Shown here: in pieces, positions 8,796 through 23,913 of the stretch
How the letters are laid out: each line of letters opens with the position of its first letter
Numbering within the stretch: the first letter of the stretch is position 1
DNA from: Mechercharimyces sp. CAU 1602
Lineage (GTDB): Bacteria > Bacillota > Bacilli > Thermoactinomycetales > JANTPT01
DNA: 64,000 nucleotides
Reading direction: 5' to 3'
Assembly: GCF_024753565.1 (NCBI RefSeq)
Contig: NZ_JANTPT010000001.1
Span: forward strand, 1,507,969 to 1,571,968
Notes under the pieces: generated by a model
The model's input: the letters and a program-made list of their open reading frames with translations, nothing else
The model's database searches: none
Told to the model about the DNA's origin: nothing
Translations under genes and position numbers: made by a program

Positions 8796-8878
8796 TCAGA
8801 TTTTAAGCTCTTCAAGACGAACAAGTTCAACGACTGCTTGTGACCGTCCTTTTACATTCAGCTTCTGCATCACATTTG
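8796..8878 (-). CDS. gerE: gerE, 3' part (split by the intervening element)
   Basis: On the minus strand, codons for N-V-M followed by QKLNVKGRSQAVVELVRLEE and three more residues run to a TGA at 8796-8798. This is the recognition and dimerisation end of the LuxR/GerE helix-turn-helix and matches my recollection of B. subtilis GerE ('QKLGVKGRSQAVVELLRMGELEL'). Alone it has no start. Joined at the shared core GCATCACATTTG (8867-8878 = 23538-23549) to the 5' part, it gives an uninterrupted 73-residue GerE. GerE is the last mother-cell regulator of sporulation, acting with sigma-K on coat genes. Confidence 0.95.
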
Positions 8879-8899
8879 TAATGCGTACCTTTTGCAAAT
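8867..8899. other. attL of the gerE intervening element
   Basis: gerE sequence up to the 12-bp core (8867-8878), then element sequence TA plus the arm ATGCGTACCTTTTGCAAAT (8881-8899). That arm is the exact reverse complement of the arm at the right end. The stop codon of the recombinase gene lies only 65 bp further in, the usual position of a large serine integrase next to its att site. Confidence 0.92.
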
Positions 8900-8963
8900 C
8901 ATCATCAGGTACAGGAAGTCTATACAGACTCGTGTCTTCGTAATTCAGGACTATATTTTCTCG

Positions 8964-10439
8964 TCATTTCTCATCTACAGGTGCCTGAATGGCTAAATGA
9001 ATATCGATCGTGCGATCGGGATGGATGACGATTCTGTCAATCAAAGTATTCAAAGCCTGAAACAAATCTTGATTTTGATCGCTGAGTGATGCAAATGCTT
9101 CTCTCACCGTCTCTACCTTCTTCCCTATGTGCTCCTTCCGCTGTATGAGAAATAAGTGGTCCTCTCCTTCTCTAATCTCATTCTCCAGTTCCTCTCTCTT
9201 CTCCTCAAATTCCTGCTTGCTAATCAACTCATCCAAATAAAGATCGACGAGCCCTTCTTTCTTCTTTTTAAGCTGGGTAATACCCTTTTCGTATTGGCAC
9301 ACTTCCTTCTGCCGTTGCTCCTCAAACTGATTAAGATAGTGAAAAGGAGCAATCGTCTCTCCTTCTTTCATTAACTGATCCAAGACGAAGGCACGTAGCT
9401 CTTCATATGTAATCGGCTCATGGTTGACACACCCATACTCCCCAGCCCGACGCCGACTACTACATTTCAAGTACTTCCAGCTCTTCTTTGTCCCATCTTT
9501 GCGCTTATTCCAGCTTTGCAGGATAACCATATTAAATCCACAGACACTACATTTTAATAATCCTCGGAACTCATTCCATGGAGTAATCTTCGTTTTCCCC
9601 TGTGTTGTCTTTTTTTTATTCGCCATATCCCAAACCTCTCTTGAAACAATTGCTGGGTGATGGTCACGAAAATAAATCCACTTTTCTTCTGGATTCTGAA
9701 TCTGCTTCTTCTTCCCACTCACTTTGATATTGGTGTACTTGTTCATCACAAAATCTCCGCAGTATATCGGGTTACGGATCAAACGCTGTACTGAGGTTAC
9801 CTGCCACTTACTCTTCATTTTCGGCTTGCAACCTCGGGAATTGAGCTCTAATGTAATCCGTTTAAATCCCCAGCCTTGGTTATACCATTGATAGATTTGA
9901 CGTACGATATCTGCTTCTTCCTGAAGGGGCACTAATAATCCTTCTTTTTTCTCATATCCATAAGGAGTTTTTCCAATATGCTCCCCCCGCCGCACCTTGG
10001 CGGCTAATGCAGCAGATATACCGGCTGAAAGGGTACGACTATATTGTGCGGAAAAGAGCGACCATAGTTCAAAGGCCATGTCATTCTTCCCCGCTTTGTT
10101 CGAATCATATCCTTCTTCCACCGAAATAATGCGGACATTGTGTGAGAGGAAAATCTCACGAATCTCTAAGGAATCTTTCAGATCTCGAGCCAAACGGCTG
10201 ATTGATTTAAATATCACTGTATCTATTTCCTTGTTTTTCGCTTTAGTTAATATAAGTTGGATGGCTGGACGATCTAATAGGAGAGTCCCACTGATGCCTT
10301 CGTCCTTATATACTCTCGTCTCATTCCATTCAAAGCCGCTGCGCTCCAGCCAATTACGACAGATATCGATTTGGTTTTCCACCGAGGATATTTGTTCATC
10401 CCGATCGGTGGACACACGTACATATACCCCGTAGTTCAT
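8964..10439 (-). CDS. Large serine recombinase (SpoIVCA-like) of the gerE element
   Basis: 491 residues. The N-terminal resolvase domain carries the catalytic serine in 'YVRVSTDRDEQ' (about residue 10) and the 'SRLARDLKDSLEI' arginine motif. A Recombinase domain follows ('GKTPYGYEKKEG'), then a zinc ribbon (CSVCG about residue 300, 'LKCSSRRRAGEYGC') and a C-terminal coiled coil (about 370-450). Domain order and length match large serine integrases and B. subtilis SpoIVCA, which excises skin. It lies 65 bp inside attL. Its expected job is recombining attL and attR to restore gerE. RBS GAGAGGTGG. An 18-bp palindrome lies 57 bp upstream. I found no convincing sigma-E or sigma-K promoter by eye. 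Confidence 0.93.
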   Translation of the reverse strand: MNYGVYVRVSTDRDEQISSVENQIDICRNWLERSGFEWNETRVYKDEGISGTLLLDRPAIQLILTKAKNKEIDTVIFKSISRLARDLKDSLEIREIFLSHNVRIISVEEGYDSNKAGKNDMAFELWSLFSAQYSRTLSAGISAALAAKVRRGEHIGKTPYGYEKKEGLLVPLQEEADIVRQIYQWYNQGWGFKRITLELNSRGCKPKMKSKWQVTSVQRLIRNPIYCGDFVMNKYTNIKVSGKKKQIQNPEEKWIYFRDHHPAIVSREVWDMANKKKTTQGKTKITPWNEFRGLLKCSVCGFNMVILQSWNKRKDGTKKSWKYLKCSSRRRAGEYGCVNHEPITYEELRAFVLDQLMKEGETIAPFHYLNQFEEQRQKEVCQYEKGITQLKKKKEGLVDLYLDELISKQEFEEKREELENEIREGEDHLFLIQRKEHIGKKVETVREAFASLSDQNQDLFQALNTLIDRIVIHPDRTIDIHLAIQAPVDEK

Positions 10440-10495
10440 CCTGGCACCACCTCTCTATAGCCCGTTGTTAGCACTTTGTTATGTTCAAATGAAAT

Positions 10496-10513
10496 AGCCA
10501 CCATGTGGTGGCT
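10496..10513. promoter_or_regulatory. 18-bp palindrome upstream of the recombinase
   Basis: AGCCACCA-TG-TGGTGGCT, perfect 8-bp arms with a 2-nt centre, between the upstream small ORF and the recombinase start. Its symmetry and position suggest an operator or a recombinase/RDF binding site; this is inference. Confidence 0.4.
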
Positions 10514-10557
10514 CTGTACGCTCCATAGTCTGTTTTCTCCTAGCAGCCATTGTGAGG

Positions 10558-10800
10558 TTATCTTGATCCATCGATATTTCGTCCCTGCCAAGGGATTACC
10601 TTTAGTACTTCCTGAGAGGATTTACTCTCTTTTTCTTTCCCAGTTGTTGTGTCAGTCATTTGATGAAAGTATGGAGCAAATGCTTCTTGGAAAGCTTTCT
10701 CTCTGTCCTTCTCTCCATAAGTTAATTGACCTAACCTCAGAGCCGTTCGCTCGTCCATTGCCACTCTCTCCATCTCCATCAACTCCAGATCGTATTTCAC
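10558..10800 (-). CDS. Small hypothetical protein upstream of the recombinase
   Basis: 80 residues from a GTG at 10800 (an internal ATG at codon 8 is also possible). It is charged and soluble, with 'ERVAMDERTALRLGQLTYGEKDREKAF' looking like a helical segment. It lies 118 bp upstream of the recombinase gene in the same direction. I do not recognise a family. Its position would suit an accessory or directionality factor for excision, but nothing in the sequence proves that. Confidence 0.45.
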   Translation of the reverse strand: MKYDLELMEMERVAMDERTALRLGQLTYGEKDREKAFQEAFAPYFHQMTDTTTGKEKESKSSQEVLKVIPWQGRNIDGSR

Positions 10801-11294
10801 CTTATTCGTCTGTCAGGTTGTCTTATGAGTGGAAATGAAAAGACACCCAACTATGTGAGATGGATGTCTTAAGAAGAGTAATTCATGTTGCTTAATTGCT
10901 ACCTACTATTAATGTTCCGTGAGAAGAAGATAAGTGGTCTATAGGTTTTCCGGAGTTTTTCCGGCTAGAGACTGCCTTGAAAAAGAGAACTTTAATGAGC
11001 TACATTGCCGTCGACGTTATTCGCGCAGAGAATCGGCAGAATATACCCTGACTAAAACTGTTTACCGTATGTCATGAAAGAGCATGCATGATAATGCACT
11101 ACAGTAAAAAATAGGTTCCGATATAACTTTAATGATTCCAACAATTACAGCACTGGAGGTCAAGACTGTGCCAACGACCCACACAATAATACTTTGTTTA
11201 GTCTGGTTAATTTCTAGTTTTCACTAGCTCGTCAAATAATACCCACCTATTAGTCAAATGGGGATTGAAGTATGCTTTAGTTATCCTGGTTTTT
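10801..11294. other. Non-coding or decayed stretch in the element
   Basis: About 490 bp. A hairpin at about 10840-10871 (AAGACACCCA...TGGATGTCTT) may end a transcript. On the minus strand around 11,080-11,220 a short frame encodes one hydrophobic segment (IIVWVVGTVLTSSAVIVGII) without a clear start, possibly a remnant of a small membrane protein. Confidence 0.3.
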
Positions 11295-11960
11295 TTATTT
11301 CACACGTCTCCGTTTAACCTTATTAGAAACAGGGACTATAATGACTCTGTATATGAAATATCCTAATATCGCTCCGGCGAAATTCAACATTAAATCATCA
11401 ACATCAAAGCTGCGGGAGTACGGCCATTCACTAAATTTAGCATCTATATAAGAGACAATCAACTGGATTACCTCTATTGATAAAATGATGAAAAATAATA
11501 TAGGTATAGTTTTTTTACTTTTGTTCAACTTCCCATCGTAAATTAAAGGTAATAGTATCCCTAGAGGAAGCATGAGAAGTAGGTTACCATATATATTTAT
11601 AAAGGTGATACTTCCGGAAATTGTCTGGAATAAAACAAGATTATATCTAATTGGCTCTTGATCTAATTCAGGGAGTAAGGGCTGTGAAATAAATTGATAA
11701 AACGGTATATATAGTAGCACATAAAATAAAACATGATATATATACACATAGTACAAAGATTTGATTAGATAAATCTTTATTGTTGATTCCTTCTTCCTCA
11801 TAGCATCCCATAAAACATAAATAATAATTGGTGATATATTTAGCAATAACTCTATAATATTTCCCACATCAACTCGATAACTGTAATTATCAAATGCATC
11901 ACGAGATAGAAAAAAGAAAAATGGGATAACTGAGATGAATAGCAAAATTATACGCTTCAT
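11295..11960 (-). CDS. VanZ-family membrane protein
   Basis: 221 residues with about five hydrophobic segments. The VanZ signatures 'NIYGNLLLMLPLGILLPL' and 'RSFDVDDLMLNFAGAILGYF' are clear. VanZ proteins are membrane proteins known from low-level teicoplanin resistance; most homologues have no assigned function. The start lies 3 bp past the stop of the solute-binding remnant, with AAAGGTGA 7 nt before the ATG, so the two were once co-transcribed. Low GC like the rest of the element. Confidence 0.85.
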   Translation of the reverse strand: MKRIILLFISVIPFFFFLSRDAFDNYSYRVDVGNIIELLLNISPIIIYVLWDAMRKKESTIKIYLIKSLYYVYIYHVLFYVLLYIPFYQFISQPLLPELDQEPIRYNLVLFQTISGSITFINIYGNLLLMLPLGILLPLIYDGKLNKSKKTIPILFFIILSIEVIQLIVSYIDAKFSEWPYSRSFDVDDLMLNFAGAILGYFIYRVIIVPVSNKVKRRRVK

Positions 11961-11963
11961 ACT

Positions 11964-12934
11964 TTAATCACCTTTTGATCCTTTAATATGGTCATGTTTG
12001 ATTTTCCTTAGCCCCTCTTCGACTGACAAGTCACCATCCAATATTAAAGGGAAATATTTTCTACAAAGCTCGTGGAACAATGCGTAGTCGCTTTCTTTTT
12101 GGAATGCATACCCATTGTATGGTCCTGTGCTCCCAAAATAAAAAACTTTTTCAATATCAATGCCTGGGTATTTGTGTTCATATGAGTTTAGGGTATCTTT
12201 ATCATAGTAAGTCACAAAGTTACCCTCGAATGATTTACGATCTGTTTTTATCATATGCTCAGCATAGCTTTTACTCATTGCATATTCAATAACTTTTAAA
12301 GCTGTATCCTTTTTGCGCGAGCTGGTAGAAATTGCAATGTTACTCATATTAACATCTATATTTGCTAATTCATCATTTTCTGAGAAAACAGGGATAGGTG
12401 AGATAGAAAAATCAAAGTCTTTTATCTTCGTTCCGAGAATTTCCTCACCACCTTTTTTATTATAGATGAAATCTAATTCATGCCCTTGACTTATTCTTAA
12501 CGGAATCTTACCTTGATAAAAAGCCTCGTATTCCAGTGATTCCTCCTCTTTGATCCCGTACTTCTTATACATTTCAATGAAGAAGGTCCATGAATTAAGT
12601 AGTTCTTTGTCTGAGAAAACTTCCCCAGACTCCACAAAAGGTCGCTCTTTAGCAAGAGTTAAGAGTTCAGCATCCATAAATAACCCTTCTTTACCACCTG
12701 GCCCCAAAGATATAGCGTATAAGTCTTCTTTAGAATCATTCTGTACAATATAGTGATCTACTTTCTCCGCTAAATTTTCGAAATCTTCCCAGTTAAGGTC
12801 TTTCTCTGGCTTTTTTATATGAGCATCCTTTAAAATGTCTTCATTTATCATTAATAACTTTGTAGAGAATGTAGGGCTTACAAAGTATAGAGAACCTTGT
12901 CCTACTTTTCGTCCAATATCATGGTATACAGATT
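11964..12934 (-). pseudogene. ABC transporter extracellular solute-binding protein, 5' truncated
   Basis: About 310 codons of a family 1 solute-binding protein: 'FSTKLLMINEDILKDAHIKKPEKDLNWEDFENLAEKV' is the typical hinge-strand and 'ttWdEf' block, followed by lobe 2 and a final 'SVEEGLRKIKHD'. The usual signal peptide, lipobox Cys and about 100-130 N-terminal residues are missing. At about 12,935 the sequence changes to an IS3-type transposase fragment, so the few residues before 'GRKVGQGSLYFVSPTF' are probably IS-derived. No permease genes are near. Almost certainly not functional. Confidence 0.75.
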
Positions 12935-13349
12935 GTCGGATGACCAAAGAACTTGTCCTGAAAGCCTTAGATCGCGCTTATGACCAACAAAGACCGAAAG
13001 AATCCGTTCTTCATCACTCCGATCGCGGGGGCCAGTACGCTTCTCATGAATACCAAGCCGACTCAAACAATACGCGATGCAAGGGAGCATGAGCCGAAAG
13101 GGAAACTGCTACGACAACGCTTGTATTGAGTCCTTCCATAGCATCATCAAACGAGAGCTCGTTTATCTTTCTCGCTTCGAAACCCGAAAACAGGCTCAAC
13201 AAAGCATCTTTAAATATATCGAATGTTTCTATAACAAGAGGAGGGTTCACTCATCGATTGACTATTGTACACCATGTGAGTATGAACAACTTTTCTACGA
13301 ATCTCTGTCCCCAGTCGCATAACATTCTAGATTTCTTGTGTCCAATCTA
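12935..13349 (+). mobile_element. IS3-family transposase remnant (orfB 3' part)
   Basis: The C-terminal part of an IS3/IS150-type DDE transposase: 'HHSDRGGQYASHEYQ' (second Asp) in one frame, then 'GSMSRKGNCYDNACIESFHSIIKRE' (catalytic Glu) in another, so there is a frameshift near 13,053. The right end TGTCCAATCTA (13339-13349) is the complement of the left tip TAGATTGGACA of the intact IS at 17185, indicating a related element. The left half of the IS is missing. Confidence 0.8.
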
Positions 13350-13365
13350 TTGACCTAATACCAAA

Positions 13366-13640
13366 TTAACCCCACATCCTTTTGTATATAATACCTACGT
13401 ATATCCATCCAATTAATTGAACGAGAGTTTAAGATAACATAATCATAAAACTCTCCATTCCTGATAGTTCAAAACATATCTCTTCCACTGTAATTCTTGA
13501 TATAGTATGAAGCGGGGTTAATAGCAGAACGATGTTAAGAGTGTAGATAAATGACTTGTTCCATATGCAAATAAGTACTAAAGCTAAGGTTGATAAGAAA
13601 GAGCAAACAACGGTTAGTCTTAGTCATCATCTTTAACCAG
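13366..13640 (-). pseudogene. Decayed copy of the small membrane protein family
   Basis: The sequence from about 13,390 is clearly homologous to the 3' part of the gene at 18,392-18,667: shared blocks ACCTACGTATATCCATCC, AATCATAAAAC and AGTAGATAAATG-like stretches. Stops and small indels break the frame. Just before it, AAATTAACCCCACATCC repeats half of the terminator at 17,126-17,163, so this is a second, older copy of the same terminator-membrane gene module. Confidence 0.6.
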
Positions 13641-13723
13641 ATTGTACATTGCATGGTTTTTCAATAGGAGAATGAATAGTTTTAAAATGAAAAAAGTAAG
13701 CATAAGCTACTTTCACTAACTCT

Positions 13724-14044
13724 TCACCTTTCTTTACTTCTTAAATGTAATATAAATATATATATCCATCCTACTATATGGACAAAAAGGAAAATAACAC
13801 TGAGTATGACACACCTAATTCCTGCTATATCTAAACATCTCCCCGACCAGGCTTCCCAAAAGGTAAAGGTAATTATAAATAGAAAAAATAATGCATTAGC
13901 TATGTACATATACTCTTTTTTCCATAAAAAAGATAGAGTGATGAAAATAAGAAGAACAGCTAATGAAGTAAAGAATACAAACATTGATCCCGATAGTGAT
14001 CCATCAATTTTATCACCTAAAACTTCAAAAATGAAATCATACAT
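13724..14044 (-). CDS. Small integral membrane protein (paralogue family in the element)
   Basis: 106 residues from the ATG at 14044, which has GGAGAG upstream. It has three or four hydrophobic segments, a conserved 'LWKKEYMYIANALFFLFIITFTFWEAWSGRCLDIAGIRC' core and the C-terminal 'HIVGWIYIFIL'. The same layout (W-K-K, x-Y-I-x-N, C-x-x-x-A-x-x-x-C, GWIY) occurs in the protein at 18,392-18,667 and in two fragments (13,390-13,640 and 18,873-18,960). No family recognised; function unknown. Confidence 0.65.
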   Translation of the reverse strand: MYDFIFEVLGDKIDGSLSGSMFVFFTSLAVLLIFITLSFLWKKEYMYIANALFFLFIITFTFWEAWSGRCLDIAGIRCVILSVIFLFVHIVGWIYIFILHLRSKER

Positions 14045-14565
14045 TATATACTCTCCATCTTTCATATGACTCAGAATTCCTAAAAACAATTTTATTGTAC
14101 CATTCTAAATCCTAAATTCCCATGAAAACACACCCCTGCGATAAAAAAGCATCTCCGTTGAACAGCTCACCTATCAAAATAAGTGCAGAAACCTTTCATA
14201 AATAACTATACCACACCTCATGTCCCGCTCTCACCGCTATCCGGTTTCACTTGCATCCATCTTGGAATTGAAGCCCGTTAGCAACTGACCCCTCTCCCTA
14301 AAAAAATGAACCTAAGTTAATATAAAGAGTTAAGAACACCGGCCGATCGACCGAAAGCCATCCGGGGTGCGGTGAAGATGATAGGACGGAGGAAGTACCT
14401 CCGTAACTATCAAGTTGCACTTTGAGTGTATTTATTTAAGGTATTATTATCAAGGTGTTTCTCTTCATTTGTAATAAATTGTATTACGACTTTGCTACAC
14501 GACTGCTATACCACCACTTACTACGACAGTAACGCCGACAATTAGACCGAAATCTAAACCGACGC
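14045..14565. other. Non-coding stretch with a strong hairpin
   Basis: About 520 bp without a supported gene. At 14,380-14,411 a nested stem forms (GATA..ACGGAGG - aagta - CCTCCGT..TATC), embedded in a GC-rich patch (14,340-14,410) that contrasts with AT-rich surroundings and could be part of a structured RNA. I cannot assign it to a known class. Confidence 0.35.
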
Positions 14566-15053
14566 TTACACCAACATTTTTTCCGCTTGAGGCCATCCAT
14601 TTCGGGATAACAAATACGAAGTCTCTTCACCAGCCGTGAAGAAGAGCATCTCTGGCATATATCCTTGATACTTCACAGTTTCTTGCACCTCTGGTTCCCA
14701 TTCGACCATTCGCCAAATCTCGCTCAGCCTTTGTGTTCTTTTCGAATCCGGCGCTATCCAGACAATAGGAGCACGGACCCCAGCATCTTCTGGGAAGGGA
14801 GCAAAGGTGTACACATAGTTACTTAATTTTTTTCTCAGTCTCTTCTCTCGCTCAGACTTGTCATCATATTCGATCCAGTACGTTGACCTTCCAGCACTAG
14901 TTTCGCATCGGGGTGGATGATCGTCCGTAATTCTTGGTACCTTGCCCGATCGGTCTTACCTTCCTTTTTCTATCCCATCTAGTTTCCCTGCAAAACGAAA
15001 GGTTTGCGGTCGCTGGGTATTCAATGCGCTTGCCGATGATTGTGAAGACGCAT
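14566..15053 (-). pseudogene. Replication-relaxation family protein remnant
   Basis: Three minus-strand frames join into one protein-like reading: 'LNTQRPQTFRFAGKLDGIEKG', then 'KTDRARYQELRTIIHPDAKL', then 'STYWIEYDDKSEREKRLRKK' and onward to APFPEDAGVRAPIVWIAPDS and the stop at 14566. The order 'HPDA.L.LE', '(W/F)(I/V)E.D....RL..KL..Y', 'P.(V/L)W.AP' fits the replication-relaxation family found on Gram-positive plasmids and integrative elements. At least two frameshifts (about 14,905 and 14,965). It indicates that the element, or an insertion in it, descends from a self-replicating or conjugative element. Confidence 0.5.
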
Positions 15054-15205
15054 TTACTTCTCTTTCCCGATTCGAAGATTCTCTGCCTGATAACGACTTG
15101 TGGTCATCTTTTCAAAGACAGCCGCTGTTTTTTGACCTACGGTACAGGAAATAAGGGTAGCAGCAATTTCAGTGATGGCATCCAAACATTTATGAACCCG
15201 AAATA
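15054..15205 (-). pseudogene. Unidentified gene remnant next to the replication-relaxation remnant
   Basis: An open minus-strand frame of about 45 codons ending at TAA 15054-15056: 'DAITEIAATLISCTVGQKTA' then 'VFEKMTTSRYQAENLRIGKEK'. The composition and regular amphipathic pattern look coding. It ends one base before the first ATG of the following sequence, suggesting an operon remnant with the replication-relaxation gene. I do not recognise the family; a C-terminal part of a plasmid or conjugation ATPase is one possibility. Confidence 0.35.
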
Positions 15206-15303
15206 ATACAATAAAATCAATTTGCAATCTATTTAATGTCTCTGCTGACTACTTAATCTGTCTTTGCCACCATTCTGAGCGAAGAAAACACTGACCTGGT
15301 CAA

Positions 15304-16512
15304 GCAAAGTTGTAACGGATAGTAGAATATATTAAAGATACCTTGCTTCCATCGGAATTTTCCCATCTAGAGCACTATGAGGTCTTACATGATGGTAGTA
15401 TAGAAAAATATAATCGGTAATTAGAGAATGTAGCTGTTCATTCTTTAACTTACCAAAAAAGGATTCCATCGGAGCATTATCAAAAGGAGAGCCAGCTTTG
15501 CTCATACTTTGTTGAATCCCGTTTTGCTCACAGAATTGAATAAAGGCTTTTGAAGTGAACTGGACTCCTTGATCACTATGTAAAATCAACCCTTCCCTTG
15601 GAGAGTGTTGGTTTAGGGCCTCTTGAAGGGTTTTGATCGCTAACTCCGCTGTCATATAAGAAGCCGTTTTCGTTGCTACAATGCTTCGGTCGCTTAAATC
15701 CAAGATGGAGCAATTGTAACGCATTCGCCCATTCGATAAAGGAACGTAGGTGAAATCGGTACACCACCGCTGGTTGATCCCTTAGCAGAAAAGTCTCTGT
15801 TAAGAATATTAGGAAAGGTCTTATGAGGCTTTCCTTTCAGGTGCGGTGGTTTCCTTTTATATACAATCGAACGGAGACCCAGCTCTTTCATGTATTTATA
15901 CACCGTTAAACGGCTATACCGATACCCTTCATACGTCAATTGCTGTTGAATCATCCGGTAACCCATCTTGCCTTGATAACGATGATAAATGTCTTTGATT
16001 ACGCCAAGCACAGCTTCTTTTCGCTTATAGTAGCTCGCTTTTCGTTTTTTTCGGTTGTTGTAGTACGCATGAGGGGATAATTGAAACCGCTTGAGAAGCC
16101 ATCGAACACCGAACTCGAAGGCATGCTCTTCTATGAATGAGTACATTACTTTTTGGTTTCCTTCGCAAAGAATGCTGCTGCCTTTTTTAAAAAACGGTTC
16201 TCCTTTTCTAACTCCTCTTTTTTCCTTTCGGAGGCGAGCAAGTTGATCGTAGACATCTTTGTCTCCTATGATAGATCCGTTATTTGCATTCGATTTTCGG
16301 CATTCTTCGCGGTACTGCTTCACCCAATGATTTAAGCTTCCTTGTCCCAAGCGATATTCTTTTATCAAACTGCTCATCGATCGTCCCTCTTCCAAATGTA
16401 AACGAATAAGCTTTTCTTTGAACGACGAATCATCATGCTTTCTTCCCATTTTGCAACACCACTTTCTTTCTCTAGTATATCGTTTTTATTCTACGTGGTG
16501 TTACAACTTCAC
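15304..16512 (-). mobile_element. Degenerate IS3-family insertion sequence
   Basis: Bounded by imperfect inverted repeats around 15,306-15,329 (AAAGTTGTAAC..AGTAGAATA) and 16,488-16,511 (complement GAAGTTGTAAC..CGTAGAATA). The transposase region has an N-terminal HTH (from 16449, MGRKHDDSSFKEKLIRLHLE), an orfB-like middle (MYSFIEEHAFEFGVRWLL) and a DDE end (LILHSDQGVQFTS, PMESFFGKLKNEQ). An A6G run near 16,210 puts orfA out of frame, and a one-base loss near 15,780 splits orfB between 15694-16449 and 15332-15724. It is therefore probably inactive. It truncates the repeat-protein gene that resumes at 16,513. Confidence 0.85.
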
Positions 16513-17052
16513 TATATCATGTCAATTTCTCCCGAAAGAGAATTGTCATTCGATGTATATGAATACGATCCTTCTGACCCTGATGATTATGTAGGGGAAT
16601 GTATTGTGAATTTGAAAAGTCGAAGTTGCTATATGTCCAATATTCATGAGTTTACAGATGGACCCTCAGGAAAACCCCAGAAGGCTGAAATATATTTAAA
16701 AGGGGATTCAGATGTTACATTTGATGTCCAATTCAAAGAAAATATTAATTGGGATACCATAGGTGAGGCGGAGTCTTCAAATGATCAAATAAGTACATCT
16801 AGCCCGCATGTAGCTACAATTGCAAGCCCGACCAACAAGGAATATACAATAAAAATGTATGAGTATGATCCTAGTAATGAGGATGAATATGTAGGGTCTT
16901 GTAAGGTAGGAACCACATCAACCCATTGTTATTGGACTAATGTAGATGCCTTCGCAGATGGTGGCAATGGTAAAGCGGAGTTGTACATTCAAAGTGATTA
17001 CTATTCTGCAGAAGGTGAAAAGATAAGCTTTGAAGGTTCGAAAAAACGTTAA
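16513..17052 (+). pseudogene. YEYDP-repeat protein, 5' truncated by an IS
   Basis: About 178 codons from the first in-frame ATG (16519). Two repeat units are visible: 'VYEYDPSDPDDYVGECIV...CYMSNIHEFTDGPSGKPQKAEIYL' and 'MYEYDPSNEDEYVGSCKV...CYWTNVDAFADGGNGKAELYI'. The same unit occurs three times in the protein at 19,970-21,454. Each unit has two Cys about 11-12 residues apart, consistent with a disulfide in a secreted protein, and an acidic loop that could bind calcium. The left end starts inside the first repeat exactly at the IS boundary, so the signal peptide and N-terminal domains are lost. Confidence 0.7.
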
Positions 17053-17125
17053 TGAAGAAATGGTCTACAGGTGAGTTCTAAGAATTCATCCACTGTTTCC
17101 CGGATATTATACTCTATAATAGTTG

Positions 17126-17163
17126 AAAGGATGTGGGGCAAATTAACCCCGCATCCTTTTATA
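17126..17163 (+). terminator. Terminator after the truncated repeat-protein gene
   Basis: AAAGGATG-GGGG - caaattaa - CCCC-GCATCCTTTT; a strong hairpin with a T-run. Half of it is duplicated at about 13,366-13,385. Confidence 0.75.
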
Positions 17164-17250
17164 TAAAATATGGATCGGCTACAGTAGATTGGACAGAAAA
17201 ATTAAGGTCAGGTAGACTGAGTTCAATTACTGAAGAGGGGCGAACCGATC

Positions 17251-17535
17251 ATGACGAAAAGAAAGCGACGTACGTTTACTCACGAATTTAAACAGCAGAT
17301 GGTGCGACTGCACGAGAATGGAAAGCCGAGAAGAGAAATCATTGAAGAATATGAGATGACAGCATCCGCCTTCGACAAGTGGGTAAGACAAAGCCAGAGT
17401 AGCGGTTCGTTTAAAGAAAAGGATAACCGAAGTCCTGAGGAAACGGAGTTAGTCCGACTAAGAAAAGAAAACCAACGTCTCCTGATGGAGAATGATATTT
17501 TAAAGCAAGCCGCGCTGATCATGGGACGAAAGTAA
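17251..17535 (+). CDS. IS3-family transposase OrfA
   Basis: 94 residues: an N-terminal helix-turn-helix ('FTHEFKQQMVRLHENGKPRREIIEEYEMTASAFDKWV') followed by a leucine-zipper-like coiled coil ('ELVRLRKENQRLLMENDILKQAA'). OrfA binds the IS ends and is normally fused to OrfB by -1 frameshifting. Its stop (TAA, 17533-17535) precedes orfB by 2 bp. Confidence 0.92.
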   Translation: MTKRKRRTFTHEFKQQMVRLHENGKPRREIIEEYEMTASAFDKWVRQSQSSGSFKEKDNRSPEETELVRLRKENQRLLMENDILKQAALIMGRK

Positions 17536-17537
17536 AT

Positions 17538-18374
17538 GTGATCCGAAATAATCGGCACAAATACTCGGTATCAGCAATGTGTGACGTCCTACAGATCCCA
17601 AGAAGTTCGTACTACTATGAGAAGAAAAGTGAGCCATCACAAGAGGAAGAGCTTGCGGTGATTATCGAAGAGATCTTTCATAAAAGCCGTCAAACCTACG
17701 GTACACGGAAAATTAAAGTGGAATTAAGGAAAGCAGGCTGGACGGTATCTAGAAGGCGAATTGGACGAATCATGAAAGAGCAAGGTCTGGTATCCAAGTA
17801 CACCGTTGCTCAGTTTCGACCGAGTAAAAGCACGTGTAATGAGTCCAATCTAGCCAATCGACTCAATCGTGAGTTTCATCAAGATCAAGAGCTGAAAGTG
17901 GTTGTAAGCGACTTAACTTACGTACGTGTTCAGCAAAAGTGGCATTACATCTGTGTTTTTGTCGACCTCTTTAACCGTGAGATCATTGGATATAGTACCG
18001 GAGCGAAAAAGGACGCCCTGCTGGTATACCGTGCCCTTTCTTCCATTCAACAAGACCTATCGAAAATCGAACTCTTTCATACTGACCGGGGAAATGAATT
18101 TAAGAATAGGCTGATTGACGAAGCTCTTGAAACCTTTGAGATTCAGCGATCCTTGAGTCTAAAAGGGTCCCCTTATGACAATGCCGTAGCCGAGGCCATG
18201 TTCAAGGTGATTAAGACAGAGTTTGTTAAATCTGCGCATTTTGAAAGCCTGCAACAACTAGAGTTAGAATTATTCGATTATGTTCACTGGTTTAATCACA
18301 TTCGAATCCACAGTACTCTCGATTATTTAACACCGGTAGAGTACAAACAGAGACACCTTAAAAAATCTGTCTAG
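17538..18374 (+). CDS. IS3-family transposase OrfB (DDE integrase)
   Basis: 278 residues from a GTG; the frame is also open upstream into orfA, so an OrfAB fusion by ribosomal frameshift is possible. An HTH_21 domain ('YGTRKIKVELRKAGWTVSRRRIGRIM') is followed by the rve integrase core. The catalytic triad is intact: Asp in 'VVVSDLTYV', Asp in 'FHTDRGNEF' and Glu in 'NAVAEAMFKVIKTEF'. This copy may be mobile. Confidence 0.93.
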   Translation: MIRNNRHKYSVSAMCDVLQIPRSSYYYEKKSEPSQEEELAVIIEEIFHKSRQTYGTRKIKVELRKAGWTVSRRRIGRIMKEQGLVSKYTVAQFRPSKSTCNESNLANRLNREFHQDQELKVVVSDLTYVRVQQKWHYICVFVDLFNREIIGYSTGAKKDALLVYRALSSIQQDLSKIELFHTDRGNEFKNRLIDEALETFEIQRSLSLKGSPYDNAVAEAMFKVIKTEFVKSAHFESLQQLELELFDYVHWFNHIRIHSTLDYLTPVEYKQRHLKKSV

Positions 18375-18391
18375 TTTGCTGTTGACAATCC

Positions 18392-18667
18392 AATACCTAC
18401 GTATATCCATCCGATTACTTGAGCTAGAATAAAAGATAATACAATCATAAAACAGCCTATCACTGCTAGTTCAAAGCATTTTTCTTCCATAGCCATCCAT
18501 AATATCATATGGAACATAATTAATAGTAGAACGATATTAGGAATGTAGATAAATTGTTTCTTCCATATATAAATTACAGTAATACAGCCAAGGTTGATAA
18601 GAGTTAGAGTAGACAAATCTATGAGAAACATGTTCCCAAAATTATTGTGAAAAAGCCAGTCATACAT
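18392..18667 (-). CDS. Small integral membrane protein, C-terminus altered by the IS
   Basis: From the ATG at 18667 about 92 codons are native and the reading runs a few codons into the IS, ending at 18371 (98 residues in all). Three or four hydrophobic segments carry the family core 'WKKQFIYIPNIVLLLIMFHMILWMAMEEKCFELAVIGCFMIV' and 'QVIGWIYVGI'. It is a paralogue of the protein at 13,724-14,044. The gene is probably expressed, but its last residues (about LSTAN) come from the IS end. Confidence 0.6.
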
Positions 18668-19074
18668 CTTAGAACTCCTCCCAGCGAAATTTAATTCGTT
18701 ACTGACTGATTCACAACCCAGCCTGTTTTTTATCCATATTTCAGATATCGATCATCATCTTAGTCTATATAATACAATTCATGGTTATTAAATAGAGTAT
18801 CAAACCGTTATAAAATGCAATAGTAGGTATAAACTAATGAAATATCGTATTTTGCACTAGCATTTCACGTTTGCTTCTTAAATGTAATATAAATATATAT
18901 ATCCATCCTGCTATATGGACAAAAAGGAAAATAACACTGAGTATGACACACTCGATTCCTTTTCGAAGGGGGGTTGTGCAAAAACATCTATTTTACAATC
19001 TATCATTCAATAAACAAAAAAAATATATAATTGGAGGTAATCAAGCCTGGGTTACTGATAATTGGTGAAAACAA
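18668..19074. other. Decayed stretch with a fragment of the small membrane gene family
   Basis: At 18,873-18,960 the sequence (CTTCTTAAATGTAATATAAA and onward) is nearly identical to 13,737-13,825, the 3' end of the small membrane gene there, with only a few substitutions. It breaks off at about 18,961. The rest holds no supported gene. Confidence 0.6.
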
Positions 19075-19086
19075 GAGGTGATGAAA

Positions 19087-19188
19087 ATGGGAACAACTAT
19101 TTTCCAAATAATTTTAGCTGCTACTTTTATTTTTACTATCGTGGCTGCATATCTATTATCTAGGGTACTGTACAAAAAGAGTGAGTAA
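19087..19188 (+). CDS. 33-residue single-helix membrane peptide
   Basis: ATG at 19087 with AGAGGTG 6 nt upstream. The peptide MGTTIFQIILAATF continues to 'IVAAYLLSRVLYKKSE', one transmembrane helix with a basic C-terminal tail. A hairpin with a T-run (about 19,188-19,217) follows directly. Size, single helix and charged tail resemble small membrane toxins or small regulatory membrane peptides, but no family is recognised. Confidence 0.5.
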   Translation: MGTTIFQIILAATFIFTIVAAYLLSRVLYKKSE

Positions 19189-19217
19189 AAAAGTCACCCA
19201 CGGGCGGCTTTTTTTAC
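19188..19217 (+). terminator. Terminator of the 33-residue peptide gene
   Basis: An imperfect stem AAAAGTCACCC - GGGCGGCTTTT followed by seven T residues, starting at the stop codon. Confidence 0.55.
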
Positions 19218-19414
19218 TCTAGGATCTCTTGTCGATATCCAATTGGGCTTTTTTTTGCTTTCTCTATAGAAAGAACATACTTAAAATCTTCAAAAATCCA
19301 CCTCAATGTCGTCGATCCCCCGAATTACGACACTACTGAAGATCGAGGACAGATCGGGTACTTGCACCCTCTCCATCATTTGTATACAATTGAGGCAAGA
19401 GTCATATAATAAGA

Positions 19415-19552
19415 AGTAGCAGGTGCATTAACACCCGCCGTAGATACGGAACAATCGGATGGTCAACCGTCAAAACGACTGACTAATCCCAGTTTAAGAT
19501 CTCAAAAGTAATCCGCCACTAGGTTTTGGGGACCAGGCGGATTACTTTTTCT
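19415..19552 (+). ncRNA. Putative type I antitoxin RNA (antisense to the toxin 3' end)
   Basis: A plus-strand region preceded by a plausible sigma-A -10 (TATAAT at about 19,406) and ending in a strong terminator, AAAAGTAATCCGCC - loop - GGCGGATTACTTTTT (19,504-19,550). It contains several small hairpins and no ORF. Its terminator arm is complementary to the last codons and stop of the convergent toxin gene (stop 19542-19544). The geometry is that of RatA/TxpA, where antitoxin RNA and toxin mRNA overlap at their 3' ends. The promoter and start are approximate. Confidence 0.5.
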
Positions 19553-19625
19553 TTCCGACGTTGTACGCGTAGTAGCCGACGGTAACAATTAGCATGAAGA
19601 GCATAATTGTTTCTCCGACTGTCAT
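19542..19625 (-). CDS. Putative type I toxin (holin-like/TxpA-type membrane peptide), copy 1
   Basis: 27 residues: MTVGETIMLFMLIVTVGYYA, then YNVGKKK. A short N-terminus, one transmembrane helix and a Lys-rich tail match the small hydrophobic toxins of Gram-positive type I systems and 'putative holin-like toxin' annotations. The ribosome binding site AAAGGGGGTGA is very strong. The 3' end overlaps the terminator of the convergent RNA. Such modules stabilise skin (txpA/ratA) and SPbeta (bsrG/SR4) in B. subtilis. A near-identical copy lies at 23,269-23,358. Confidence 0.6.
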   Translation of the reverse strand: MTVGETIMLFMLIVTVGYYAYNVGKKK

Positions 19626-19816
19626 AGCGTCACCCCCTTTCGGGGGCTAGTCGCCGCCTCTGGCCCTTATCCGATTGTCCTGACTTGAATTATATCATAA
19701 TTCCAAATTTAATAGAGTGTATGATAAAAAAGCTGGGTGAGCGGAATTGAAGGAAATAAGTCCATTCACTCTTAAGTAATCCCACCCCTTTTCAAAAGGT
19801 ATGCATTACATTCTTT
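19556..19816. repeat. Right-end duplication, copy A (toxin plus degenerate att-like site)
   Basis: From 19,556 to about 19,700 it is almost identical to 23,289-23,440, then about 70 % similar up to 19,816. It ends in TTTTCAAAAGGTATGCATTA-CATT, a degenerate copy of the attR arm and core (TTTGCAAAAGGTACGCAT-CACATT). The sequence after it is not gerE. It therefore looks like the right terminus of a second, older element inside the present one. Confidence 0.7.
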
Positions 19817-19888
19817 AGGGGCGGTTTGCGGAAGATTGTTGTAGAACAAGCTTGTATCTTCTCGCGGGAAGAGTATGGGGTAAAAAGG

Positions 19889-19931
19889 AATAATCGTAGA
19901 ATAGTTAGTAACATAAACTATTCTACGATTA
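19889..19931 (-). terminator. Perfect 17-bp stem-loop after the repeat-protein gene
   Basis: ATAATCGTAGAATAGTT - agtaacata - AACTATTCTACGATTAT, 39 bp past the stop at 19970, followed on the minus strand by TTCCTTTTT. Confidence 0.75.
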
Positions 19932-19969
19932 TCATATAATGTCATCTGATGTCACTTTTTATTGAAGTC

Positions 19970-22395
19970 TTAGTCGAAAAACACCGCTGAGAACGGACAA
20001 TCTGTAGAGTTCGTCAGAATGTAAAGTTCTGCTTTGTTATTGGATCCATCGACGTCAATACCTTTCCAATTACAGCTATTTTTAGTGCCAGTTACAGTAC
20101 ATTCGCCAATATGGTCATCCCCGTTATCTGGATCATACTCATATAACTGGAAGGTTATCGTGCTGGATGCATCATAACCCGAAAAGTTCACTTTAACGTT
20201 TCCTCCATTGGAACTCACACGATCACTTGTAGTGGTGAATTCCAAGTCTTCGCCAATCTTCTCCCACGAGTCTCCTTTTTGTTGGAATGAGACTGAGAAG
20301 GGTCCATCTGTAGAGTATGTTAGAAGATACAATTCTGCAAGTTCATTAGGTCCATCTGTATTGCTATCATTTATTTCCCATACACACTCGTAGGGGTCAT
20401 TTGAAACTGTACATCGACCAACATAATCGTCACTATTATCTGGATCATATTCGTACAAGTAGAATGTCGTTTTCTTACCAGAAAGATTACCAGAGATACT
20501 GGCTTTAAGCTGTCCCTCAGCTACACTAATTCGGTCACTTTCATCAGTGAACTCTGAGCTAGAGCCAACTTTACTCCATCCATCCTCATAAAAGACCGCC
20601 GCAAAAACATTTGTACCAGCTTCTGTTTTCAAATAAAGTTCTGCCTTTTCATTTGGTCCATCTGTCGCATCATCTATTCCTTCCCATATGCAATCATACG
20701 CATTAGTCGTTACAGTACATTCTCCTACATAATCATCATCGTTATCTGGATCATATTCGTATAGCTTGAACGTTTTATTGGTATCATTTGCTGATAATCC
20801 CCAAATTTGCGCCTTAAAATCGCCACCTGAATAACTAACTTGATCACTTATGTGTGTAAACTTCAGATCTTCACCAATCCTTTCCCATTCTCCATCATCA
20901 CTAATAGATTGAGTATTCTCTACCAATTCATTATTAATTACACTGATCTTCCATTCGCAATTAGGAAATGGTGGGAATAAATATTTGAAATCTTGGTGTT
21001 CATGCTGATGGATAGGAAATCCCCAATCCGAACTATATTGCATCATATACATTTCATGGGAAGGGGCTTGGTCGTGAGTACCTGAAAATTCAAAATCTCC
21101 ATTCTTATAAACTTTAGCGTCATACTCCGCGTCTATGGCTGGTGCAATCGGTTTATCAAATGCCTTCAATATTGGGATATTGGACGCTAAGTCCATACTA
21201 TATGAGATCCAATCTGTGTGAAACTCCTCATTTTCAATTTTCATATCGGATGTTGGCGCTTTATCTGTAGCAACTTCCTCACCATCTAGATAACCGATCG
21301 TTACCCCTGTCTGGGGGTCATGATGCAGACCATTAGGCTCACCACTTCTATAATCCCATGTTACATAGACGTCTGATCTTGTTCGAAAATCATCCGACCA
21401 CATGTCAAACTCCCTGTTATCGCCATGAAAACTATCAAATTCGCAAACACCCAACCAATCACACCAAGGATTAGGAGCGGTCTCTAACGGAATAAATGTA
21501 GTATATCTTATTAGCCATCCCTCTCCACTTATATCTGGGGGGGTTAGTTCAGGAGATTTTTCTATGACATTTTTTCACTACTGTTTGTTTGTGTACCTTC
21601 CTCAGATGAATTGAGAATAATTGTTTCTAATTCTTTCTTTTCATATGAAAGCTCCTGCTCCATTTCAGCAGATACTTCAATTCCACTTTCTTCAAGTTCA
21701 TTCTTTTTAATGCTAACAATTTCAGAAGATAGCCTCTTTTTTGCGTGGATGCTGTACTTTGTTTGTTTATCACTCTTATTATTTTCTATATCATTATCAC
21801 ATAAATATTCCCTTCAACCTCCCCGATTAATTCCTCATTTTTATATATATCGTAATTATTATCATCATCAGGTAGATCAAACCATTCAAGGATTATTTTA
21901 TCCTCTGTGATAATAGAGTTGATTCGACTCTCTTGCATTGAATACTGTATTTCCTCTGATGCAATACCTTCCCTTTCTCCCTTCTCGTTGTTATCACTTT
22001 CCTTTCTTTCGGAAATCTGCTCCTTCGACTTTTTTGTTGAAGTATTGATATTTGATATTCTATGACATTTCCTTCAATATCATACACAATTAATTGATAT
22101 TTATAAGATTGCCCTGCCTCCAAATCTCCTATTTCATACTTGTTCGCAACACCAGTATATATAATGTTTTTATCATGATTTTTTTCAATTAATTTATGTA
22201 CATAAATTTCTCCAATATCGCTCCAGGTCACACTAATGGAACTAGTATCTGATTCTATTCCTATGTCCATTTCATCTTTGCTACTTCATCTTTGCTTGAA
22301 GTTTCTCCTTCCGCGAAGCTATAACTTAAGTTAGCTGGAAGGACAAAGACCAGTACAAGAGACATAAAAAAAAGTTTTAGAGAACGTTTTTTCAT
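19970..22395 (-). pseudogene. Secreted DUF3238-like / YEYDP-repeat protein gene with N-terminal frameshifts
   Basis: An original reading of about 800 codons can be followed in pieces: a signal peptide from the ATG at 22395 (MKKRSLKLFFMSLVLVFVLP, then ANLSYSFAEG) ending in a stop at about 22,263; an FN3-like piece (22270-21,990); a charged linker in a second frame (22,060-21,790); then 'ISELTPPDISGEGWLIRYTT' leading into the long intact frame 19970-21454. That frame has a central domain ('GDNREFDMW', 'RTRSDVYV', 'GTHDQAPSHEMY') resembling DUF3238 and three C-terminal repeats of about 80 residues with 'LYEYDPDN.DDYVGECTV..C.W..I...DGPN.KAELYL'. At least three frameshifts or stops separate the signal peptide from the rest, so secretion is unlikely. 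Confidence 0.65.
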
Positions 22396-22647
22396 GCTAG
22401 AACATCTACCTTTCTTTTTCTTAATAAAAATCATGAATCACTGAAAACCGATACTAACACACTAATTTTCCTGTGTTGAAAATGATTTTCAAATATACTG
22501 ATATAGTATATAATTATTGGATAAACCGTAAACATTATCTAGTTATTTATTTTCAATTTAACTTTTTAATTCAATATTTTACTTATTATAGAATATATTA
22601 AAGCCTTATCAATGTCATCAGTATGATAATAAATAGGGGGATAAAAA

Positions 22648-23208
22648 ATGAGTGTTATTAAAAGAAAATTCATTGCAGGATCTTTATCTTTCATTTTTTT
22701 CACTTTGTGCATTTCGTTGATTAACGATTTCTATTTTTTTAATTCATATGAAGATTTTCTCTTTTATGTTTGTGTTTTCACTCCGATCTTTTTAATTTAC
22801 GGAGTAGGAGCTTCTTATTTAACTGAACGAATATCTCAAGGTGATCAGTGGAAATCTTTCTTGTTACATATCTTCGGGTCAATGTTTATTTTCTATCTAG
22901 CATTCATTTTAGTAGAAGCCATTGCCCTAGAGCAGCTTGATCTTTTTTTAATTTTAATCGGGAGTATCATGATCTATGGGATTGCGGTAACAGTAATAAC
23001 AAAAAAAAGACTTATTGCAAAAAAAAGAGTATGGATTTTCTTTTGGTTCATCCCCTTTTTAGTGATTCTTATCCCCAGTTTAGTATTCATGCTTATAGAT
23101 CCCACTGAGTATTCCCCAATTATATTTTTAGTTCTTTATAACATTACAGGGGCTTTGTTTTTTTGGCTAACAGATTGTCTTCTTATTAAGATATTCAACA
23201 GGAGTTAA
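22648..23208 (+). CDS. Multi-pass membrane protein, unknown function
   Basis: 186 residues with about six hydrophobic helices and short loops ('FTPIFLIYGVGASYLTERIS', 'FGSMFIFYLAFILVEA', 'IFFWFIPFLVILIPSLVFML'). The layout resembles the UPF0715 family of Bacillus mobile-element membrane proteins; that is a guess from memory. RBS GGGGGATAAAAA before the ATG. It is one of the few intact genes in the right part of the element. Very AT-rich. Confidence 0.6.
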   Translation: MSVIKRKFIAGSLSFIFFTLCISLINDFYFFNSYEDFLFYVCVFTPIFLIYGVGASYLTERISQGDQWKSFLLHIFGSMFIFYLAFILVEAIALEQLDLFLILIGSIMIYGIAVTVITKKRLIAKKRVWIFFWFIPFLVILIPSLVFMLIDPTEYSPIIFLVLYNITGALFFWLTDCLLIKIFNRS

Positions 23209-23268
23209 GTGGCATTAAGAGCCACGTTAAACTGCGATGAACTAAAATATACCTAACAGGCCAGGCAA

Positions 23269-23358
23269 TTATAACACCGTGCCTGGCCCGACATTGTACG
23301 CGTAGTAGCCGACGGTAACAATTAGCATGAAAAGCATAATTGTTTCTCCGACTGTCAT
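23269..23358 (-). CDS. Putative type I toxin, copy 2 (altered C-terminus)
   Basis: 29 residues identical to copy 1 through 'MTVGETIMLFMLIVTVGYYA YNVG' and then ending PGTVL instead of KKK. The same strong RBS is present. The antisense terminator region found after copy 1 is absent; instead a GGCCAGGC/GCCTGGCC hairpin (23,259-23,288) overlaps the 3' end. It lacks the Lys tail and the antitoxin, so it may be inactive or a relic of end duplication. Confidence 0.55.
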   Translation of the reverse strand: MTVGETIMLFMLIVTVGYYAYNVGPGTVL

Positions 23359-23549
23359 AGCGTCACCCCCTTTCGGGGGCCAGTCGCCGCCTCAGACCCA
23401 TATCCGATTGTTCTGACTTGAATTATATCATAATTCCAAATTTAATTTGAGTATGTGATAAACGAGTTGGGGGAGCGGAAATGAAGTAATACAAATCCGC
23501 TCCCCCTGAATTAACTCCACCTATTTGCAAAAGGTACGCATCACATTTG
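23289..23549. repeat. Right-end duplication, copy B (toxin plus attR)
   Basis: The counterpart of 19,556-19,816: toxin, its leader (CCCCCTTTCGGGGG hairpin, TTGAATTATATCATAATTCC), an inverted repeat GGGGGAGCGGA / TCCGCTCCCCC (23,469-23,506), then the attR arm and core. This copy forms the actual right end of the element. Confidence 0.75.
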
Positions 23550-23688
23550 AAATATGATTGCGAACGGTTTTTTCGCTGATGAATAAATCCTGAGCAATTT
23601 CTTTGGTGGTCTTATCCTGTACTAGTAATTCAAATACTTCCCTCTCCCTATTCGTCAACAAGGGCTTCCCATTCTGTTTGTGAGTCAA
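23521..23688 (-). CDS. gerE: gerE, 5' part (split by the intervening element)
   Basis: TTG start at 23688 with AAGGAGGGG 7 nt upstream. The first 50 codons encode [20 protein letters not shown], then [20 protein letters not shown] and [10 protein letters not shown]: the N-terminal two-thirds of the LuxR/GerE helix-turn-helix, nearly identical to what I recall of B. subtilis GerE. After the core the frame runs into the element and ends RTFCK-stop (TAG 23521-23523), so the unexcised form makes a 55-residue protein lacking the last helices. Excision restores a 73-residue GerE, against 74 in B. subtilis. A sigma-K-type promoter lies upstream. Confidence 0.95.
23523..23549. other. attR of the gerE intervening element
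   Basis: The arm ATTTGCAAAAGGTACGCAT (23523-23541) overlaps the 12-bp core GCATCACATTTG (23538-23549), followed by gerE codons. Joined to the left element end it makes a symmetrical attP with centre CACATTTGTA, predicting TT (23546-23547) as the crossover dinucleotide. Confidence 0.92.
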
Positions 23689-23746: not shown

Positions 23747-23775
23747 TATTGTATGAACGGGCTTTTTTATCGGTG
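23747..23775 (-). promoter_or_regulatory. Sigma-K-type promoter of gerE
   Basis: On the minus strand: -35 CACC (23775-23772), 16 nt, then -10 CATACAATA (23755-23747), a perfect match to the sigma-K pattern mACm-N16-CATAnnnTA. The expected start near 23,740 gives a leader of about 50 nt. This fits mother-cell expression of gerE. Confidence 0.75.
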
Positions 23776-23913
23776 AGCTTTAGAGGGGAAAATAGGCGAT
23801 CGATGATGTTCAGGTGCATGAGTGACTCGTGACTCGGGTTATCTTATGATGAAGTAAAAGAAGGTGTGACTTGTACAATAACAGCCCTAAATCAGCAAGG
23901 TCTATTTCCAAAC
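23776..23913. other. Intergenic region between gerE and ppiB
   Basis: No gene seen. It contains the region upstream of the gerE promoter and leads into the ppiB terminator. Confidence 0.3.

Follow-up and report, generated by a model that had tools for sequence, protein, structure and literature searches.

The gerE gene in the window (the whole 64-kb stretch of DNA analyzed here, from genome G000) has a sigma-K-type promoter and is cut in two by an intervening element. The reading that best fits the locus, to which we give a probability of roughly 85%, is that the two halves are rejoined by excision of the element during sporulation, after sigK itself has been rebuilt. gerE is inactive in the chromosome because its Ser-Asn-Val-Met codons are interrupted by a serine-integrase element of 14.7 kb. 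At sporulation the recombinase of the element, probably switched to excision by a small conserved protein, would recombine attL with attR across a central AA dinucleotide, leaving a continuous GerE frame that ends at a terminator past the 3′ half. Because the mother cell is terminal, the element would nonetheless stay in the germ line. Sigma-K would have to be rebuilt first by separate excisions from sigK, and the gerE promoter would fire only then; this order is suggested by the fact that sigK is itself in three pieces, separated by inserts of 65 kb and 18.4 kb.

The promoter is the sole exact match to CACC-N16-CATACAATA within the 64-kb window, and none was found in 100 shuffles. The initial annotation had placed it about 60 bp before a TTG start, and it does lie there, with 58 bp measured from the end of the −10 element to the start codon (Table 1). 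The degenerate form CAC-N17-CATANNATA has 2 copies in 64 kb versus 0.10 expected, and its other copy forms a second sigma-K-like site 93 bp upstream of the gerE promoter, with a similar site at approximately equal distance in 7 other genomes. In the compilation of Bacillus subtilis sigma-K promoters, the −35 element is counted as 5 nt and the −10 element as 10 nt, with an optimum gap of 15 nt (PMC517825). By this convention the gap in the gerE promoter is 15 nt, matching the optimum, and the site combines an AC-type −35 element, the −10 sequence CATANNNTA, and accepted spacing in front of a late mother-cell gene. It thus shares both elements and the optimal spacing with the B. subtilis promoters (PMC517825), a likeness drawn from sequence alone.

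A sigma-K-type promoter precedes gerE in all 41 upstream regions from the order, before split and intact genes alike. In 40 of the 41 genomes it takes the form CAC-N17-CATANN[AT]TA (equivalent to N16 after a four-base −35 element) at approximately equal distance from gerE, versus 0.04 sigma-K motifs in shuffled gerE upstream regions; the exception, G028, has N15 spacing. The shuffles and the conservation across the order rule out a chance match as the source of the motif. The earlier claim that the site fits the sigma-K consensus in both elements and in spacing is borne out by the optimum gap and by this conservation. We infer that the site in the window is the gerE promoter and serves RNA polymerase carrying sigma-K at a late stage of mother-cell development.

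Other parts of the upstream region are conserved as well. The GerE-box-like sequence AAATAGGCGATC lies upstream of the −35 element, where a GerE-box-like AAATAGGC is also visible in the alignment of the order. RWWTRGGY, which we take to be the GerE-box consensus, is present in 39 of the 41 gerE upstream regions, versus 4.0 in shuffles, and autoregulation of gerE is possible on the strength of this site. Between the −10 element and the RBS, the leader TGACTGAGTCCCTGACCCT (23746-23700) is strongly conserved across the order and may represent a regulatory site or RNA. The RBS expected before gerE is present as well.

Table 1. Features of the split gerE locus, with positions numbered along the 64-kb window.
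Feature	Position	Strand	Description
Second sigma-K-like site	23868-23840	minus	Copy of CAC-N17-CATANNATA, same direction as the gerE promoter
GerE-box-like site	23790-23801	plus	AAATAGGCGATC, upstream of −35
Sigma-K-type gerE promoter	23775-23747	minus	−35 CACC at 23775-23772, N16, −10 CATACAATA at 23755-23747
gerE leader and RBS	23746-23696	minus	RBS AAGGAGGGG at 23704-23696; conserved in alignment of 41 genomes
gerE 5′ part	23688-23546	minus	TTG start at 23688; ends at crossover central AA (23547-23546)
attL	23569-23524	minus	Hybrid of gerE sequence and left arm of element
Strong hairpin just inside left end of element	23506-23469	minus	−29.0 kcal/mol, z −4.9
Whole intervening element	8876-23547	none	14,671 bp
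Conserved small ORF, candidate recombination directionality factor	10758-10558	minus	66 aa from ATG at 10758
Large serine recombinase, candidate integrase/excisionase	8964-10439	minus	491 aa; Resolvase, Recombinase, and zinc-ribbon domains
attR	8898-8853	minus	Hybrid of right arm of element and gerE sequence
gerE 3′ part	8876-8796	minus	Stop codon TGA
Intrinsic terminator after gerE 3′ part	about 8787-8755	minus	Hairpin followed by T run

The frame that opens at the TTG start agrees with GerE over roughly the first 50 codons; beyond them it enters the element and meets a stop at 23521, giving a truncated product of 55 aa. The remainder of the gene is collinear on the same strand 14,671 bp away, and joining the two halves at their common core, the short direct repeat CAAATGTGATGC, gives a GerE of 73 aa. 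No second gerE was found in G000; the remaining strong matches there belong to long regulators of the LuxR type. The terminator that the initial annotation assigned to gerE does exist, but it follows the 3′ half, some 15 kb off. The frame of the 5′ half has a promoter, an RBS, and a stop codon of its own, as would be expected if the promoter expressed a truncated 55-aa GerE with its own function. We consider this scarcely credible, because no activity was obtained from the truncated form in Bacillus cereus (PMC5595907), elements differ in the tail that they add to the truncated frame, and selection acts on the 3′ part of the gene too.

The ends of the element carry the two halves of a recombination site. 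When the arms are joined, the deduced attP TTTGCAAAAGGTACGCATTACAAATGTGATGCGTACCTTTTGCAAA is palindromic at 21 of 23 positions, compared with a shuffled mean of 6.4 and a maximum of 16, whereas the target site in gerE is not palindromic (9 of 23 positions). Independent support for the deduced att site comes from a circular 41-kb phage-like record from B. altitudinis (NZ_CP124832), which encodes a recombinase 47% identical to that of the window and carries, directly 3′ of the recombinase gene, an unintegrated attP built to the same plan, 38/46 identical. This record is filed as a plasmid and resembles a circularized phage genome, with an integrase and attP that match the gerE-targeting family.

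The large serine recombinase of the element is intact, and the rest of its cargo consists of IS3-type transposase genes and a few other genes, IS elements having inserted in it. No phage structural or conjugation families were found by Pfam search among the larger proteins of the element. This argues against a conventional mobile element, or the remains of a phage, excising to serve its own transfer or induction and outside sporulation control, an explanation encouraged by the presence of the same integrase family on phages and on the circular phage-like record. Several of the gerE elements of the order are only 5-6 kb long, and selection on gerE requires excision at sporulation, so we regard this explanation as very unlikely. 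The strong hairpin inside the left end has counterparts of similar strength in four other elements and is weaker or absent in the rest; it may be a terminator that prevents read-through from the gerE promoter before excision. Also inside the element is a 29-aa hydrophobic frame, MTVGETIMLFMLIVTVGYYAYNVGPGTVL (23274-23360, minus strand), which by eye resembles a holin-like toxin peptide; a reading of this frame near 23300 as a holin-like type I toxin was dropped, no Pfam family being matched.

The same interruption recurs across the order. The cut falls at one and the same gerE codon in 14 of 41 gerE-bearing genomes; in every one of these the 3′ part shares a contig and strand with the 5′ part at a distance of 5.1 to 49.2 kb, and all 14 have related element arms. 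The recurrence of this split in 14 genomes whose att arms match speaks against an assembly artifact. The genera involved include Paludifilum, Marininema, Thermoflavimicrobium, Thermoactinomyces, Baia, Croceifilum, Shimazuella, and Laceyella. The recombinase has orthologues (56-66% identical) in each of the 14 split genomes and in none of the 28 others searched. In a class-wide sample of 399 genomes, the recombinase was present in 20, with no match identifiable as belonging to the B. cereus group. Most of its relatives in Bacillales adjoin a gerE half, as in Aneurinibacillus, Brevibacillus, Cytobacillus, Neobacillus, Heyndrickxia, Evansella, Lederbergia, Terribacillus, Sporolactobacillus, and B. 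methanolicus. In the recombinase tree, the 14 sequences share a region with Brevibacillus, Aneurinibacillus, and some Bacillaceae and are not resolved as one clade. Six further genomes (G128, G091, G261, G293, G271, and G068) have gerE cut at the same codon, with the recombinase family absent at the cut-off used, and other integrases may use the same gerE site.

A second gene follows the same distribution. The conserved small ORF is found in 14 of 14 split-gerE genomes, in 0 of 28 other genomes of the order searched, and at five Bacillales loci that have the recombinase, while its position varies from adjoining the recombinase gene to kilobases away. It matched no Pfam family. By likeness to GirX and SprB, it is a candidate directionality factor, and we infer that the direction of recombination may be under its control. 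No convincing sigma-E or sigma-K promoter consensus was found before the recombinase and small genes in G000. Most of the other elements have a conserved GGCTCGTA-N14-GCATA-like site ahead of the small gene; this motif could be a mother-cell promoter, with a poor fit to both the sigma-E and sigma-K consensus.

Selection appears to maintain both parts of the gene. Within the split genera, codon changes are purely synonymous in the 5′ and 3′ halves of gerE; summed over the three pairs among G032-G034, there are 35 synonymous changes versus 0 nonsynonymous. Between G000 and G016, the 5′ half has 16 synonymous and 3 nonsynonymous changes and the 3′ half 11 and 3, so that pN/pS is low in both halves of the window's gene. 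These patterns indicate that both halves are under purifying selection, and such upkeep would be unexpected of a gerE that is never reassembled; the view of gerE as a dead pseudogene is disfavored on this account.

The initial annotation had reached the same conclusion by another route, arguing that retention of the promoter on a split gene points to regular excision rather than a dead gene. The conclusion is very likely right, but the reason given for it is weak, because the promoter lies outside the element and a young insertion would leave it intact anyway. A recent insertion, in which gerE has been lost and its promoter, RBS, and terminator survive for lack of time, would also leave these signals in place, and the attP arms in G000 are in fact the least diverged of the 14. 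We nevertheless judge it unlikely, given the low pN/pS of the G000 halves, the intact state of the recombinase and small ORF throughout the 14 split genomes, and the persistence of a split gerE through speciation in at least 3 genera, where all changes in either half are synonymous. Excision at sporulation is instead very likely in view of a recombinase and a small ORF whose occurrence in the order coincides with the 14 split genomes, the matching att sites, the purifying selection on both halves, the lack of a second gerE, and the published excision of an analogous element, gin (PMC5595907).

gin of B. cereus ATCC10987 is a 28.6-kb element in gerE with three recombinases, girA, girB, and girC, and its excision in B. 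cereus has been published, with GirC and GirX (PMC5595907). The two elements have much in common. Both lie at practically the same gerE codons (47-49), encode a serine recombinase and, as a separate small gene, a factor (a candidate one in the window), show no phage genes (by Pfam search of the larger proteins in the window), and would yield a composite GerE of about 74 aa. In both, the central AA, which is the pair predicted for gin (PMC5595907), makes up bases 1 and 2 of the Asn codon. The element in the window differs in its length of 14.7 kb, its single recombinase in place of three, and its host order. As an intervening element in gerE, the one in the window would be expected to work like gin.

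Other sporulation genes are interrupted in comparable ways. The skin element in sigK of B. subtilis and Clostridioides difficile is likewise a serine-recombinase element that splits a mother-cell regulator (PMC5025042); it shares its location in sigK with the inserts that G000 has outside the window. In SP-beta, which lies in spsM, the integrase SprA and the small directionality factor SprB restore a sporulation gene in the mother cell (PMC4191935). SP-beta is an inducible phage, whereas no phage families were found among the searched proteins of the gerE element in the window.

In G000, sigK itself is broken into three pieces that keep their order and share a strand (near C1:390700-390930, 325480-325720, and 306860-307125; C1:306858-390925 overall, outside the window, L181-L185). 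The first gap (65 kb) contains long phage-like reading frames, judged from sequence by reading, and a 564-aa recombinase adjoins piece 1. No clear repeat was found at the ends of this gap, so the exact joint is uncertain. In the second gap (18.4 kb), a 523-aa recombinase adjoins piece 3 and the ends share a 16-bp repeat, AATGAGATTACACTAA.

Breakage of sigK is common in the order. Twenty genomes have a sigK above the family cut-off, and in most of the remaining genomes the gene is broken, at three recurring fixed sites used in varied combinations and into as many as four pieces. Among the relatives whose sigK regions were examined (L188-L201; G008, G020, G021, G025, G026, G029, G033, G034, and G004), the gene is cut at two sites in G008, G020, G029, and G033 and at three in G034, apparently also in G021 and G026, where some pieces are on other contigs. 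A serine recombinase lies beside a junction in most of the gaps within the stretches examined. In G034 (C1:348440-373933; L198, L199), the final sigK piece has the opposite orientation to the three before it, and simple excision would not restore the gene there, barring an inversion or a fault in the assembly. The described cases of skin have one element per sigK, compared with two in G000 and up to three in its relatives, and we found no reports of more than one element in sigK in the open-access literature.

Since sigK is split in three, use of the gerE promoter by sigma-K would need further rearrangements, and several DNA excisions are probably needed before the spore program is complete. 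On balance, we favor the broader view that the late mother-cell program of this host and its order is gated by serial programmed excisions in sigK and gerE, a stepwise genome assembly somewhat like DNA elimination in ciliates. Elements that interrupt gerE were already known from gin; their combination with a multiply interrupted sigK appears to be new.

With these observations, gerE interruption can no longer be seen as peculiar to the B. cereus group. A single integrase family is found at the same gerE codon in about one third of the sampled genomes of the order and in scattered genera of Bacillales, and its conserved candidate excision factor is open to direct testing. A multiply split sigK upstream of gerE would make the sporulation cascade a chain of DNA excisions, and the question of whether such elements are parasites adapted to development or checkpoints of the host is thereby made testable.
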